From positions 248,001 to 312,000 of the forward strand of contig NZ_BAABWK010000002.1 of NCBI RefSeq assembly GCF_040362765.1: DNA of 64,000 nt, given 5' to 3'. A program made the translations under genes and the position numbers. Shown here piece by piece: positions 2,390 to 61,100 of this stretch (positions are counted from its first letter, which is position 1; each line of letters begins with the position of its first letter). Under the pieces are notes generated by a model. The model worked only from the letters and a program-made list of their open reading frames with translations. It was not told the DNA's origin and searched no databases. The DNA is from Pyruvatibacter sp. HU-CL02332 (lineage in GTDB: Bacteria; Pseudomonadota; Alphaproteobacteria; CGMCC-115125).

Positions 2390-3130
2390 ATGAGCGAACA
2401 AGGCACCCAGGCCGAACCTTCCATGGAAGAAATTCTCGCCTCGATCCGTCGGATTATCTCCGAGGATGGTGAGGAAGAAGGTGCGGAAGGCGCAGCTGCT
2501 CCTGAAGCTGAAGCTGCAGAGGCTGTGGAAGCTGCGGCCGAACCAGATGCGGCTGAAGAAGAAGCAACCCCCATCGAAGACCTCATGGTCGCCGAAGATG
2601 ATGCTGACGACGAAGACGATGTCCTGGAACTGACGGATATTGCCGAAGTTGAGCCAGAACCGGAGCCTGAGCCCGAACCAGAGCCAGAGCCGGAAATGGC
2701 TGCAGAGCCCGAACCGGAACCAGAACCGGTCGCAGAGCCTGAACCCGTTGCCACCGAGCCTGTTGCGGATGATCCATTCGACACAGGCGAAGACAGCGAT
2801 CTTATGGCCATTGATCGGACGCCTGAGCCTGAACCGGCTCCAGAGCCTGCACCCGTGGCGGCACCAGTGCCCGTTGCAAACACGGCACCAACACCGGAGC
2901 CGACTTCTTTGATGTCTGCTGAAGCGTCAGCCGCAGCAACGGCCGCGTTTGATCGTCTTACGGACGATATGCGGATTTCAGGTGATGGCGAGTCAGGCAC
3001 CCTGGAAGGCCTCGTTCAAGACCTTCTGCGGCCCATGATGAAGGCCTGGCTGGATGAAAATCTGCCAACCATCGTTGAAGCAGCCGTAGCTGAAGAAGTA
3101 GAGCGTGTGGGCCGCCGTCGCCGGCGGTAA
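2390..3130 (+). CDS. popZ: Polar organizing protein PopZ (DUF2497)
   Basis: A 246-residue scaffold that forms cell-pole condensates and, in studied alphaproteobacteria, anchors the chromosome origin through ParB. The N-terminal binding helix is visible as SMEEILASIRRIISED; the C-terminal assembly helices as GLVQDLLRPMMKAWLDENL followed by VEAAVAEEVERV and a basic end. Between them lies a very acidic, proline-rich linker (about residues 22-170) with runs of alternating Glu-Pro, the 'PED' region. The start is the ATG at 2390, preceded by GGTGAG; a longer open frame from 2285 has no family support. The linker is roughly twice the length of that in Caulobacter PopZ (177 residues in total). Confidence 0.9.
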   Translation: MSEQGTQAEPSMEEILASIRRIISEDGEEEGAEGAAAPEAEAAEAVEAAAEPDAAEEEATPIEDLMVAEDDADDEDDVLELTDIAEVEPEPEPEPEPEPEPEMAAEPEPEPEPVAEPEPVATEPVADDPFDTGEDSDLMAIDRTPEPEPAPEPAPVAAPVPVANTAPTPEPTSLMSAEASAAATAAFDRLTDDMRISGDGESGTLEGLVQDLLRPMMKAWLDENLPTIVEAAVAEEVERVGRRRRR

Positions 3131-41776: not shown

Positions 41777-43216
41777 CTAGTTCCAGATTGGCGGGTGGCG
41801 GTCGATCCATGGCTGCGCCTGCTCAAGCTGGGCAGCAATCCGGATCAATGTGGCTTCGTCGCCTGCACGACCGGCGAAATGGACACCAACTGGCAGTCCA
41901 TCAGGTGTCCAGTGCAGAGGCAGGGAAATGGCGGGCTGACCGGTCGCGTTCTCGATGGGCGTAAACGGCACATAATCGAGGATCGGCTCAAAGGCCTTCT
42001 GTGGGTCACCTTCGTTGATATCGACGGTGCCGATACGAAGGGGTGGTTCGCCGAGCGTCGGCGTCAGCCACAAATCATACTCGTCATGCCATTGGGCAAC
42101 GCTGCGGCTCATGATCTGAAGCATGGCAACGGCGTTCAGGTAGTCCGCGCCTGATATCTGCTTGCCTGCTTCCCACAAGCCGATGGTCAACGGCTCAAGG
42201 TCACCTTGGTTTGGCGTTTTGCCGAACAGCACATTCTGCACTTCAATCTGCTGGGTCACACCTGTGGCCCAGATCGCCATGAAGGCTTCCTGCATCATGT
42301 CGTTGTCCAGAGGTGGTGACGCCTCTTCTACATGATGGCCGAGGCTTTCCAGAAGCTTGGCGGTGTTGGTGACCGCCTTTGCACATTCCTCATGAACGGG
42401 GGTACCGCCGGGAGTCTTGGTCGTAAACCCGATGCGCAGATTGCCGGGACGCGTTCCTACATCCTCTGACCAGATGCCGTCGTGATGCGGAGCGAAATAC
42501 GGGTCGCCGGGCTCCGGGCCTGCCGCGATGTCGAGGGCCACGGCGGTGTCGCGCACCGTCCGGCTGACGACAAGATCGGTCGTCAGTCCGGACATGGCGT
42601 CACCAATCATTGGCCCCTGCGGAATGCGCGCGCGGCTGGGTTTCAACCCCACAAGCCCGCATGAGGAAGCGGGAATACGAATAGAGCCGCCGCCGTCATT
42701 GGCGTGGGCGAGGGGCACAATACCCGCAGCAACCGCAGCCGCTGACCCGCCAGAAGAGCCACCGGGCGTATGATCCGGGTTCCAGGGATTGCGGGCCGGT
42801 CCATAGAGTGCGCTTTCGGAGACGGGAAGAAGCCCAAACTCAGGCACATTTGTCTTGCCGAGTGGCACAAGACCCGCTGCCAGAAACCGCGTGGTCAGGG
42901 TTGAGTGCATTGGAGCTGGACTACCGGCGACAAAACGTGAGCCGTACTGCGTAGCAACACCTTCAAAGTCGCCCATGATGTCCTTGAGTAGGAAGGGCAC
43001 ACCGGCGAAGGGCGCCGCAGCATCACCTTCATCAATATCACCGGCAATCTGGCGGCCCTGATCAGCCATGTCCGTCACGACGGCGTTCAGGGTGGGATTG
43101 TGTTTCTCAATCCGGCTCAGGGCTTCTTCAGCCAGTTCGCCTGCCGTCACCTCTCCCTTGCGCACGAGTTCGGCAAGGCCGACCCCATCATGCGCCGCGT
43201 AATCATCAATCGGCAT
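41777..43216 (-). CDS. Amidase signature family protein (first of a tandem pair)
   Basis: A 479-residue amidase with K78 in PFLLKDIM, S154 in [10 protein letters not shown] and nucleophile S178 in [16 protein letters not shown] lies eight bases before the ATG. It shares the start [16 protein letters not shown] and the end of the protein with the downstream paralogue, but the middle regions (substrate pocket) differ a good deal, so the two probably act on different amides. It is the promoter-proximal gene of the pair. Confidence 0.9.
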
Positions 43217-43552
43217 TCACACGTCCTCCCAGACACAATTTTTTGTTGGGAGATACGCTAATGGACCAATAGGCGAACGGGAAGGGTGGTGTTGCTGTGA
43301 ATGTCGGGGCACTGGTGTGGCGACCAACCCGGTTCCAACGGAAAGTCTGTAGGCGTTGACAGCCGCATCGGGCACCAAGTTGCCAGCCGGCAGGCTCCCA
43401 CACACGACACCCTCGAAGTTCCTTGTCGCGAACAACAACTTTGAACGCCGCTTTGGAAACAGGCCCGGAAGCCCGACAAAAAAGCCGGGTGTTTTGCCTT
43501 TACCTCACAGGTGGTCGATTGCCATGATCTGGTCGGAGCCTATGATGTCCGC
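43217..43552. other. Intergenic stretch between divergent amidase and DUF2161 genes
   Basis: This 336-base region carries the amidase leader (Shine-Dalgarno at about 43222-43229), one copy of a 26-base repeat (43271-43296, listed separately), and otherwise no gene I can support. Short open frames on both strands lack family similarity and ribosome-binding sites. Promoters for both directions must lie here, but no clear -35/-10 pair was found. Confidence 0.5.
43271..43296 (+). repeat. Left copy of a 26-base direct repeat flanking the DUF2161 gene
   Basis: AGGCGAACGGGAAGGGTGGT and the next six bases match the copy at 44305-44330 at 24 of 26 positions. The right copy forms the last codons of the phoD-like gene; this left copy is non-coding. 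The pair encloses a segment of about 1.03 kb. Confidence 0.6.
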
Positions 43553-44224
43553 ATGGGGCGCATCAAGGAAACGGAACTCTACCAACCTGTGAAAACCTTC
43601 CTCACCGGACAGGGGTATGAGGTGAAGGCTGAGGTTGCTTCTGCAGATATTGTTGCATGCCGGGATGGCGAGGATCCTGTCATTGTTGAACTCAAGACCG
43701 GTTTCTCGCTCAGTCTTTTCCATCAGGCGGTCGCCCGCCAGTCGATGACCGATGCCGTGTACATAGCCGTGGCACGTGGGTCCGGGCGGCGATTTCAGCA
43801 AGCTCTCAAAAACAATCTCAGCCTTGCCCGCAGGCTCGGCCTGGGTCTCATAACCGTGAGGCTCGCAGATGCATTTGTAGAAGTTCATCTAGACCCCGCT
43901 CCCTACGCGCCGCGTAAATCCAAGAGACGCAGAGACAGGCTCTTGAGGGAGTTCTCACGTAGGGTCGGCGACCCGAACACCGGGGGATCGACACGTGTCA
44001 AGCTGGTCACAGCCTATCGGCAGGATGCATTGCGCTGTGCCGCACACCTGAAGGCCAACGGACCGAGCCGTGGCGCGGACATCGCCAAGACAACCGGCGT
44101 TGCCCGCGCGACAAGGATGATGGCCGACGACCATTATGGATGGTTCGAACGGATTGAACGCGGGGTTTATACCCTAAGCCCCAAGGGACAGGCGTATCTG
44201 CAGAGCTATCAGGACGAGGTATAG
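43553..44224 (+). CDS. DUF2161 family protein, putative PD-(D/E)XK phosphodiesterase
   Basis: A 223-residue protein. The N-terminal half has the nuclease-like core: ETELYQPVKTFLTGQGY, then ADIVACRDGEDPVIVELKTG, where the Asp and Glu-x-Lys form a PD-(D/E)XK motif, then SLFHQAVARQSMTDAVYIAV. The middle is very basic (RKSKRRRDRLLREFSRR). The C-terminal part (about 150-215) looks like a winged helix. The target is unknown. I start it at the ATG at 43553, since the family begins with KETELY; a GTG at 43511 is an alternative. It lies alone between convergent or divergent neighbours and is flanked by direct repeats. Confidence 0.8.
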   Translation: MGRIKETELYQPVKTFLTGQGYEVKAEVASADIVACRDGEDPVIVELKTGFSLSLFHQAVARQSMTDAVYIAVARGSGRRFQQALKNNLSLARRLGLGLITVRLADAFVEVHLDPAPYAPRKSKRRRDRLLREFSRRVGDPNTGGSTRVKLVTAYRQDALRCAAHLKANGPSRGADIAKTTGVARATRMMADDHYGWFERIERGVYTLSPKGQAYLQSYQDEV

Positions 44225-44302
44225 CGTCATCCCGCTGCCTTATTGGCCGCATTAAGAAACAGCTCCTCGCGTCACCCGGCTTTGTCGGGAAACAGGCGAG
44301 CA

Positions 44303-46384
44303 TCAGGCGAACGGGAACGGTGGTGTTCCTTCAAAATCAGGGTCGCTGAGCTGCGGCGCCTCGCTTGGCTTCCATAGTGGCGCGGTCAAGGTTGCACGGC
44401 GGCGGACCTCAGCAGCGTCGCTTGACGACTTTTGCTTGTTGGCATTGGCAACCGTCACCACCTCGCCACTGATCTGGTCACCAGTCAGAGTGAGAACCAC
44501 ATAGCCATGGGCATTGGTGTCCAGATATTTGATGTAGGGATTTGCCGAGTCACTCTCCAGCCATCCGCTCAGCGTATCGCTGCCAGTGTAATTCATCGCC
44601 AGAGACGCCCTGACGCCATGCATAAGTGTGAGGTTGAAGTTCTCCAGCATCTCACCGTCGGGGCCGTCTGCCACAACCATCGGTCGGAAGGCGTTTCCGG
44701 GGTCACGGGTGAAGCTTTCAGCCCCCGAGAAGAAGGTGAAGGAGGAGATGCCGCAGGTGGCAAACTCCAGCGCGGCCCCTTCAGGTGTCTCAGCATCCGG
44801 ATCAGTTGTGAGAACCGCAGCCCCGTGCATGTGATAGTCGCCGGCGCAAGAGACAACGCCTGCAATGCCTTCGTCTTTCACAAAGGACATCAACTCGCGC
44901 AGCTCACCGGGATAGCCATTCCAGGCATCTGTGCCCAGTACGGCATCCTGCAAATCCTGAAAAGGAATGGACGCCAGATCGAGCCGCAAGGGCATGGCGG
45001 GAATTGAGTTCGCCCAAAGTTTCCAGGAAGCGGAGCTACCTTTGAGCGTTTCCTTGAACCACTTCTTCTGGTCTGTCCCCAGAATTGATGCTGCGGGTTT
45101 ATCCGCTCGCGGATTGGGGACGTCTCCGTCCTTTCCGGGGAAAACAGCGGGCGGGTTTCCATCCGATGCATCGCGTCCGGCATCAAGCGCGCGGATGATG
45201 TCGGTAGGTGGCGCTGGCGCGCCAATGGCTTCTTCCAGCGCTTCATCCATGGGCTGAGGCGACCGGTAGCTGCGCGTGTCCGTAACGACGATGGACGCTG
45301 TCTTGCCCCATTCCAGACTGCGGTAAATCGTCAAAGACGCAAGAGCCGACAGGTTGTTGGGTTCATTCAACAGGTAGCCATCGCCAGGCTCGCCGCCGGC
45401 TGCATCTGACACAGTGGCTGGCTTGAAGTCATGGGCGGGTCCATCAAGACGCGCAGGCATGTATTCAAACCATGCCTGGTTGGCTGAGACCTTGCGCTCC
45501 TGCGCTGGGCCTGTGCCGCCAGTGTAGGTGGCATAGCTCTGCCAGCTGTCATTGGTAAATTCGTGATCGTCCCAGGTGCAGATGAACGGCCAGCGGGCGC
45601 GGGCGGTCTGCAGGGCTTCGTCCTCAAGATAGGTCTTGTACAGATGCCGGTAGTCCGTGACCGATACCGCAAAGTTTCGGCCACTTGGCAAGGTTGCCCC
45701 ATCCGGGAAAGGCTCAATCCGCCGCGCGGCTTCAAGGCCTGCGGGCAGGTCCGGGCTGGTTTCATATATGAAGTCACCCAGATGCAGGACGGCGTGTATC
45801 TGGTCTTCCGGTTGCGCGGCTTCATCGTCACTGACCATGCGTGCCCAGGCGCCGAAATATCCTTGCTCGTAATTCTGGCACGAGGCCATGGCGATACGCA
45901 GGGGTGCATCAGCATCGGCCGCAGGCGCCGTGCGCGTGCGGCCCAGTCGGGAAACATCACCGGCGGTCGTCAAGAAACGATAGTAGTACCAGCTGTCCGG
46001 CTCGAGACCTGTGACGCTCACCCGAACGGTGTAGTCCTGTTCCAGCGATGCTGATACGGGCTGTTCCACAACCACGGTGGCAAATGTTTCATCCGCCGAC
46101 ACCTGAAGGGTAAGCGACAGGGGGCGTGCGGACCTGTCCAGCGGCGTGGCGCGGGTCCAGAGAATAGCGCCGTCCGACGACGGATCAGCGGACGCCACAC
46201 CATGCGTAAAGAGGCCACGCCGACCAGCGACAGGCGCCACGCTTTCCTCAGTTGCCTCTTGGGCATTTGCAGGACGCATGGCGGGCAGAAACCCAGATCC
46301 TGTGGCTGCGGCAACGAAGCAGCCTGCCGTCGCCCCGAAGCGGCGCATGAACTCACGGCGGGTGGAGTGGGAACTGGACGTCAT
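44303..46384 (-). CDS. Tat-exported PhoD-type alkaline phosphatase/phosphodiesterase
   Basis: A 693-residue protein with a twin-arginine signal, STRREFMRRFGATAG (residues 7-21), and cleavage near Ala-Asn-Ala at 39-41. A Fn3-like N-terminal PhoD domain (about 55-155) precedes the metallophosphatase domain: ASCQNYEQGYFGAW (168-180), HLGDFIYE (201-208), WDDHEFTND (271-279) and SCAGDYHMHG. These are the iron/calcium ligands of PhoD. It would release phosphate from organic esters in the periplasm, exported by the tatABC products also encoded here. It is longer than typical PhoD (500-580) because of loops around 330-420. The stop codon falls inside a repeat. Confidence 0.9.
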   Translation of the reverse strand: MTSSSHSTRREFMRRFGATAGCFVAAATGSGFLPAMRPANAQEATEESVAPVAGRRGLFTHGVASADPSSDGAILWTRATPLDRSARPLSLTLQVSADETFATVVVEQPVSASLEQDYTVRVSVTGLEPDSWYYYRFLTTAGDVSRLGRTRTAPAADADAPLRIAMASCQNYEQGYFGAWARMVSDDEAAQPEDQIHAVLHLGDFIYETSPDLPAGLEAARRIEPFPDGATLPSGRNFAVSVTDYRHLYKTYLEDEALQTARARWPFICTWDDHEFTNDSWQSYATYTGGTGPAQERKVSANQAWFEYMPARLDGPAHDFKPATVSDAAGGEPGDGYLLNEPNNLSALASLTIYRSLEWGKTASIVVTDTRSYRSPQPMDEALEEAIGAPAPPTDIIRALDAGRDASDGNPPAVFPGKDGDVPNPRADKPAASILGTDQKKWFKETLKGSSASWKLWANSIPAMPLRLDLASIPFQDLQDAVLGTDAWNGYPGELRELMSFVKDEGIAGVVSCAGDYHMHGAAVLTTDPDAETPEGAALEFATCGISSFTFFSGAESFTRDPGNAFRPMVVADGPDGEMLENFNLTLMHGVRASLAMNYTGSDTLSGWLESDSANPYIKYLDTNAHGYVVLTLTGDQISGEVVTVANANKQKSSSDAAEVRRRATLTAPLWKPSEAPQLSDPDFEGTPPFPFA
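44305..44330 (+). repeat. Right copy of a 26-base direct repeat, at the 3' end of the phoD-like gene
   Basis: This copy encodes the C-terminal residues of the phosphatase (GTPPFPFA and stop) on the minus strand. It matches 43271-43296 at 24 of 26 bases in direct orientation. A gene 3' end repeated on the far side of an inserted segment is the arrangement left by site-specific integration, though no integrase is present. Confidence 0.6.
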
Positions 46385-59416: not shown

Positions 59417-59941
59417 ATGATGAAACGGACGGGGCTGTATCCGGGGACTTTTGACCCGATTACCAATGGCCACCTAGACATCATTAACCGTGGACTGAAG
59501 ATGGTTGACCATCTCGTCATCGGTGTTGCCATCAACCGCGACAAGGGGCCTTTGTTTGCTCTTGAGGACCGCGTGGCAATGGTTGAGGAAGAGGTCGGGA
59601 AGCTCATCGAAGCCTCTGACAGCAAGACGACGGTCAAAGTTCAACCATTTGAATCCCTCCTGATGCATTTCGCTGAGGAAATCGGCGCACAAATGATCAT
59701 CCGTGGACTGCGTGCCGTGTCAGACTTTGAATATGAATTCCAGATGGCCGGCATGAATGAACGCCTTAATCCGGACATAGAGACAGTGTTCCTGATGGCA
59801 GAAGCGCAGCATCAGGCTGTTGCCTCGCGGCTTGTAAAAGAGATTGCCCGGCTAGGTGGTGACATTTCACATTTCACCACCCCAATGGTTCAGGATCGTT
59901 TGCTGACCCGTTTTGCCGAACTCAAACAGGCCGCATCCTGA
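59417..59941 (+). CDS. coaD: Phosphopantetheine adenylyltransferase
   Basis: A 174-residue nucleotidyltransferase that makes dephospho-CoA. GLYPGTFDPITNGHLDII carries the T/HxGH motif (Gly18-His19), IIRGLRAVSDFEYEFQMA and the C-terminal GGDISHFTTPMV complete the family. GGAG lies upstream of the ATG. It follows gyrA by 85 bases. Length is normal. Confidence 0.96.
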   Translation: MMKRTGLYPGTFDPITNGHLDIINRGLKMVDHLVIGVAINRDKGPLFALEDRVAMVEEEVGKLIEASDSKTTVKVQPFESLLMHFAEEIGAQMIIRGLRAVSDFEYEFQMAGMNERLNPDIETVFLMAEAQHQAVASRLVKEIARLGGDISHFTTPMVQDRLLTRFAELKQAAS

Positions 59942-59987
59942 TCTGGCGCCACATCGGCACAAGACACTTTTGGGAGAGTTTCACCTT

Positions 59988-60593
59988 ATGCGTATGTCAT
60001 TGACCCGAACCTGGCTTTCAGCGCTGGCACTGGTTGCTATTGCTGCGATCGCGTTCAACAAACCCGCCATGGCGCAGGCCCCCTTCGAGGATGATACATC
60101 CAACATTCTTGTGCTTGAACTGAGCACCGGCACTGTTGAAATCATGATGCGGCCAGATCTTGCGCCGCTCCATGTCGAACGTATCAAGAAGCTGGCCCGC
60201 GAGAAGTTCTATGACGGCATCATCTTTCATCGGGTGATCGACGGTTTCATGGCACAGACCGGCGACCCTGCCGGCACCGGAGCCGGTGGCTCCACGTATC
60301 CTGACCTGCCTGCTGAGTTCACGGAAACAAAATTCCGTCGCGGTACCATTGGTGCAGCCCGCACGGCAGACCCGAACAGTGCCAACAGCCAGTTCTTCAT
60401 CATGTTCAATCTGGCTCGCCACATGAACAATCCACGTAACCCGTCCGGCTTCTACACCGTATGGGGTGAAGTCATTTCCGGCATGGATGCTGTGGACGAC
60501 CTGCCGAAGGGCGAACCACCTGCGAGCCCTGGCAAAATCATCACTGCACGGATTAAATCCGACCTTGCGCCTGCAGCTCCTGCGGCGCCCTGA
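59988..60593 (+). CDS. Exported cyclophilin-type peptidyl-prolyl isomerase
   Basis: A 201-residue PPIase with a signal peptide (hydrophobic 9-23, cleavage Ala-Met-Ala-Gln). The fold is shown by [21 protein letters not shown] (catalytic Arg), NSQFFIMF, and YTVWGEVISGMDAVDDL. It accelerates folding of periplasmic proteins. GGGAGAG lies ten bases before the ATG at 59988. The next gene encodes a cytoplasmic relative. Confidence 0.93.
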   Translation: MRMSLTRTWLSALALVAIAAIAFNKPAMAQAPFEDDTSNILVLELSTGTVEIMMRPDLAPLHVERIKKLAREKFYDGIIFHRVIDGFMAQTGDPAGTGAGGSTYPDLPAEFTETKFRRGTIGAARTADPNSANSQFFIMFNLARHMNNPRNPSGFYTVWGEVISGMDAVDDLPKGEPPASPGKIITARIKSDLAPAAPAAP

Positions 60594-60632
60594 AACTAAA
60601 CGACACGATCTCACAACAGAAAAGAGAGAGCG

Positions 60633-61100
60633 ATGACAGACGCCTCGCCTGAAGACACCCTGATCCTGACACTGAAAACAGGTGACGTAAAAATCGCCCT
60701 GCGGCCGGACCTTGCACCAAACCATGTTGCCCGCATCAAGGAACTGGTACGTGATGGCTTTTACAATCAGATTGTCTTCCACCGTGTGATTGACAACTTC
60801 ATGGCGCAGACCGGCGATCCCACCGGAACCGGCATGGGTGGCTCCGGCAAGAACCTTGCTGCCGAGTTCTCGAATGAAGCTCACGTGCGGGGCACATGCT
60901 CCATGGCACGTGCTGCAGATCCCGACAGTGCCGACAGCCAGTTCTTCATCTGCTTCCAGGAATCCTCCTGGCTTGATGGCCAATACACAGTCTGGGGTCA
61001 GGTCGTTGACGGCATGGATCATGTAGATGCCATTGCCAAGGGCGAGCCACCGGCAACCCCTGACAAGATCGAGAAGGCCGTCATTGCCGCAGACGCCTGA
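60633..61100 (+). CDS. Cytoplasmic cyclophilin-type peptidyl-prolyl isomerase
   Basis: A 155-residue PPIase without signal peptide. [32 protein letters not shown] and [15 protein letters not shown] are the cyclophilin core. GAGAG precedes the ATG. It lies 39 bases after the exported paralogue and 22 before queA, and the pair probably arose by duplication. Confidence 0.93.

Follow-up and report, generated by a model that had tools for sequence, protein, structure and literature searches.

We asked how a DUF2161 nuclease-like gene came to lie between a phoD-like phosphatase gene and an amidase gene, bracketed by direct repeats, in a 64,000-nucleotide stretch of the Pyruvatibacter sp. HU-CL02332 genome (the window). 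The original prediction, made from the sequence of the window, was integration into the 3' end of a gene, yielding either a minimal mobile cassette or a duplicated phosphatase end. We conclude that the insertion is real, with an empty site in a relative and a target duplication that is still legible; the class of event is ordinary and the gene is interesting. The features of the locus are listed below, with identities to G003, a genome of the same genus.

41777 to 43216, minus strand: amidase gene, the native neighbour, 98% amino acid identity to G003
43264 to 43296, no strand: left repeat copy, running on from the native amidase-side intergenic sequence; the old phoD stop position reads ATA
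43294 to 43552, no strand: left part of the insert, apparently foreign, presumably holding the promoter; no convincing match elsewhere
43553 to 44224, plus strand: DUF2161/COG5482 gene (longest ORF from GTG 43511), predicted PD-(D/E)XK nuclease-like domain and C-terminal winged helix
44225 to 44297, no strand: right-hand part of the insert, apparently also foreign; a hairpin lies at about 44265-44300
44298 to 44330, no strand: right repeat copy, the phoD 3' end, stop codon at 44303-44305
44303 to 46384, minus strand: phoD-like phosphatase gene, intact, 94% amino acid identity to G003

A one-gene insertion across the phoD stop codon

The direct repeats are real and are not expected by chance. 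A repeat search of the window returned a direct pair of 33 nt at 43264-43296 and 44298-44330, with 28/33 positions matching (85%) and a spacing of 1034, and the 26-nt copies first noticed within it (43271-43296 and 44305-44330) are indeed identical at 24 of 26 positions. Only 0.0027 direct 26-mer pairs with at least 24 matches are expected in 64 kb of the same composition, in agreement with the original estimate that such a match was unlikely by chance. At least 23/26 matches were reached at four offsets in the real window, the phoD-side pair included, and two of the other three offsets correspond to paralogous genes: two peptidyl-prolyl isomerase-like ORFs and two amidases (labels assigned partly by eye). 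The peptidyl-prolyl isomerase-like ORFs lie next to each other at 59913-61100.

As had been read, the right copy forms the 3' end of phoD; in the left copy the stop codon is altered, which is what one expects of a copy that has no function. The repeat sequence is not scattered: it occurs at two places only in its own genome, and the counts in the same-genus genomes G001, G002 and G003 are zero, zero and one. The segment of approximately 1.0 kb between the copies holds a single gene, that of DUF2161, again as predicted, and ATG 43553 is a likelier start for it than GTG 43511.

A relative has the empty site. In G003, phoD and the amidase gene are adjacent (phoD end at 1463812, amidase start at 1463868) with one repeat copy between them, and there is no DUF2161 anywhere in the genome; this is the arrangement anticipated for a relative without the insert, and it supports insertion into the 3' end of a gene. 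The alignment of the window to G003 stops at window position 43293 on the left and restarts at 44298 on the right, with approximately 30 bases of the empty site overlapping, and therefore the insertion measures about 1.0 kb, and a stretch of about 30 bp that contains the phoD stop codon was duplicated. G003 is the only clean empty site within the genus: G001 has kept the amidase and gave no match to phoD, and in G002 the site is broken at contig ends. Sequence adjoining the amidase gene in G001 (locus L015, around 2985-3040) loosely resembles the phoD 3' end.

A protein search, with which a PF09929 search agreed, found no DUF2161 in any of the three other same-genus genomes, G002 being only 81% complete, and relatives were present in 6 of the 41 genomes of the first search, its own genome included. 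G012, a genome from a different family, likewise has phoD next to the amidase gene, and its DUF2161 gene is some 660 kb distant. Three further genomes (L108, L109 and L110), read by eye, have phoD and then the start of an amidase gene. Based on these comparisons and on the affiliation described below, the locus shows an empty site, a gene of foreign affiliation, a single target duplication of about 30 bp across the phoD stop, and an intact phoD.

The DUF2161 protein and its affiliation

The DUF2161 protein is probably a functional nuclease that is maintained by purifying selection. It matched DUF2161 (PF09929) with an E value of 8.7e-45 and 152.1 bits (gathering cut-off 27), and E6, D32, E46 and K48, the last two forming E46-x-K48, are invariant across 24 sequences. 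A structure model has two domains (mean pLDDT 84.8, pTM 0.53). The N-terminal domain of the model matched AF2093 (Z 10.6), the restriction enzyme PaqCI (Z 10.3) and XisH-family proteins (Z 9.8-9.9), and residues 151-223 matched MarR-type winged helices (best Z 11.1, rmsd 2.0, 72 residues aligned); Z values of about 10-11 are only moderately over the range that the tool's own note calls common. The conserved residues and the matches of the model are consistent with the PD-(D/E)XK core and winged-helix-like end first proposed. Among solved structures there was no sequence relative at E≤1. In a Foldseek search with the model, an Hjc chain appeared at rank 17 (E 0.02); the N-terminal domain was matched better by AF2093, PaqCI and XisH-type proteins. 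The likeliest of the predicted activities are structure-specific DNA cleavage, as by archaeal Holliday-junction resolvases, or restriction-like cutting. As to the defensive role first suggested as possible, none of the PADLOC models matched the protein at E≤1, and one PHROG of unknown function did so with an E value of 3e-12.

The gene groups with those of Stappiaceae. The best of 52 relatives in named genomes were from Roseibium and Stappia (80-83%), and in whole-protein alignments the top identity was 84% of amino acids, to Stappiaceae homologues. In a tree of 58 rows the window protein fell inside a 23-row clade (support 99/92) made up of Stappiaceae together with a MAG of Tepidamorphus and a single strain that carries the label Rhodobacterales. 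Because of this grouping, and because the three congeneric genomes lack the gene, we conclude that it was horizontally acquired. Against six Stappiaceae genes dN was 0.11-0.15 and dS was near-saturated, which points to purifying selection and argues that the sampled species were not the direct donor. Among phage and plasmid records no carriage of the close form was found: four phage records matched in part at about 37%, and the 147 plasmid records were all below 60%.

The similarity to Stappiaceae is confined to the gene. DNA similarity to loci L036-L057 was 68-74% within it, and neither phoD nor the amidase gene was found in the flanking sequence retrieved for the 52 DUF2161 loci. The non-coding ends of the insert also appear to be foreign; the homology to donor-like loci does not reach them, and searches for their source gave chance-level matches only. 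Sequences able to form hairpins lie near both ends (44265-44300 and 43470-43520); their CCCGGC...GTCGGG motifs are similar but oppositely oriented, and they are possibly terminators. The hairpin motif ACCCGGCTTTGTCGGG was rejected as a repeated element end, its frequency being not above that of the reversed control. The marks of a transposon are missing: the repeat search found no inverted arm pair at the two ends of the insert, and the insert has no transposase gene.

Location of DUF2161 genes in Stappiaceae

The position of DUF2161 appears to be unusually labile in Stappiaceae, perhaps by analogy with the Rpn recombination-promoting nucleases. A PF09929 gene was present exactly once in each of 20 Stappiaceae-like genomes, and among 385 genomes of the class there were 46 carriers, all 46 with one copy. 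We compared gene locations in 20 Stappiaceae genomes, drawn from the 22 loci L036-L057 with L051 and L055 left out. A homologous 1.5-kb flank of DUF2161 was common to 16 of the 190 genome pairs, and the gene fell into 9 contexts (sharing either flank) or 14 (sharing both). In contrast, a flank of a nucleotidyltransferase gene (PF06042) that neighbours DUF2161 in L038 was common to 176 of the 190 pairs with DUF2161 masked, this being the one control gene run across all 20 genomes. Contexts were steadier in Rhodobacterales, for example in the Roseobacter rows.

An accessory gene beside DUF2161 in L039 was found in 4 of the 20 genomes, and its epimerase-like neighbour (by eye) was kept in all four. 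The pair of pabB and the nucleotidyltransferase gene was kept within 1.5 kb in 12 of the 20 genomes; the gap between them (studied in L038, L050 and L138-L157, with the gaps of L155-L157 unused) holds DUF2161 in two of the 12, a gene for a MOSC-domain protein in one (L146), and neither, as far as was found, in nine. The gap was 31-94 bp long in the six genomes measured that have no inserted gene. That a different single gene has landed in this gap points to a general fluidity of the genome at the ends of genes, and such one-gene landings resemble the one in the window. At 5325-5780 in L047, upstream of DUF2161, there is an ORF that by eye resembles a remnant of an IS6-type transposase, with no Pfam match. 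With one copy per genome and differing locations in most of the Stappiaceae sampled, DUF2161 offers a tangible case for asking if a solitary nuclease aids the movement of its own gene.

Origin of the insertion and comparison with known systems

We favor the reading, with somewhat better than even confidence, that a gene from a Stappiaceae-like donor was placed here by illegitimate, repair-type recombination. The donor's DUF2161 gene would have entered the lineage and landed between phoD and the amidase gene together with flanking DNA, about 260 bp on its upstream side and 73 bp on its downstream side. The join may have been made by staggered-break fill-in or by template switching, presumably with no dedicated integrase, and the insert as a unit would now be immobile. 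For simple fill-in, a duplication of about 30 bp is long, and it would fit the attL and attR of a site-specific recombinase as well. We nevertheless prefer illegitimate insertion because the insert has no recombinase gene (the lack of an integrase had been noticed at the outset), the repeat is confined to this site, and other DUF2161 loci are without comparable repeats: the best 26-nt window at 57 of them reached 20/26, in five of the 57, versus 24/26 here, and at 22 Stappiaceae and related DUF2161 loci there were no exact repeats beyond those in shuffles. With no integrase, no termini common to other DUF2161 loci and no comparable repeats at those loci, the proposed minimal mobile cassette is unsupported as a defined element.

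These results bear on site-specific integration, in which a small cassette would be bounded by the repeats as attL and attR, its integrase acting in trans or having since been lost. The direct repeats where a gene has its 3' end, the preserved gene, the one-copy empty site and a short GGAAC/GTTCC inverted repeat in the repeat core (seen by eye) all fit this reading, which we nonetheless consider unlikely, given the points above and two others. The repeat sequence is not used a second time across the four congeneric genomes. Additionally, a search of its own genome for PF00589 found three proteins, of which two best match XerD- and XerC-type models, and the third, the only non-Xer tyrosine integrase found, is encoded downstream of a tRNA-Val gene, at a distance of about 120 bp. 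This solitary integrase gene (L160, contig C2 around 743588) possibly belongs to a small or decayed integrated element. A tandem duplication of phoD, in which the left repeat would end a decayed second copy that DUF2161 entered or replaced, is highly improbable. Read in the phoD frame the left copy gives ...SAPTFTATPPFPFA, and the extended homology to the G003 phoD was equalled by only 5 of 300 shuffles; however, against the phoD of the same genome 25 of 300 shuffles scored equally, the five more distant phoD genes compared lent no support, identity falls steeply past the repeat, and relatives with this phoD have a single copy. The candidate homology to phoD extending past the left repeat was rejected, being marginal against G003 and not even that against its own phoD and the five distant ones. 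The duplicated phosphatase end first suggested thus holds for the repeat of about 30 nt, and the longer homology beyond it is weak.

It is also very unlikely, in our judgment, that the DUF2161 nuclease spreads its own gene in an Rpn-like or homing-like manner, with the breaks it makes being repaired with its own gene as the insert. A predicted nuclease with a winged helix, the Rpn precedent in the available text of PMC5350276, and the combination of one copy per genome with many chromosomal contexts, set against the control gene, would be in keeping with such spread. Against it, the other loci have no target duplication, contexts in Rhodobacterales are stable, a single copy in every carrier of the class sample is unlike a proliferating element, and the flank contrast depends on one control gene in 20 genomes. 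We are similarly doubtful that DUF2161 promotes its own travel, as a solitary PD-(D/E)XK nuclease with a DNA-binding winged helix whose breaks let its gene be copied into gene ends, with one copy per genome and a shifting location; if it did, the window would hold a landing with its target duplication of about 30 bp still legible. Under the illegitimate recombination that we favor, the locus is a clear empty-site case in which a single accessory gene was captured with no visible integrase and the target duplication can still be read.

The insertion shares features with several known systems. As with integrative elements at gene 3' ends, there are direct repeats, a preserved gene end and an empty site in a relative; it differs from those elements in being a single gene with no recombinase and no common termini. 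As in illegitimate and homology-facilitated illegitimate recombination, a small foreign fragment was joined with no dedicated recombinase; the homology-facilitated form, as described in the available part of PMC3240628, expects a homologous end, and none is apparent in this insert.

Our literature searches found nothing under the name DUF2161. A PD-(D/E)XK core akin to archaeal Holliday-junction resolvases and a C-terminal wHTH were predicted earlier for COG5482, in the portion of PMC1189080 available to us. The window protein agrees with COG5482/DUF2161 (PF09929), as far as that portion describes the family, in length (about 223-237 amino acids), in domain order and in its E...D...ELK pattern, with no difference in the protein; what is added here is that it arrived horizontally, with a duplication of the target, and that its location is labile within Stappiaceae.

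Rpn/YhgA-like proteins (PF04754) are, by analogy, the best precedent that we found for a nuclease gene inserted on its own between other genes. In the available sections of PMC5350276 they are likewise lone PD-(D/E)XK nuclease genes present as intergenic one-gene insertions, and their overexpression increased RecA-independent recombination; according to the accessible part of PMC10327210, Rpn proteins were subsequently reported as phage-defence toxin-antitoxin systems. Rpn genes occur in several copies per genome, versus one for DUF2161, and the families differ, in that the window protein gave PF09929 only at E≤0.001, with PF04754 unmatched. Because the Pfam families are different, Rpn serves as an analogy for DUF2161 rather than as a family to which it belongs.
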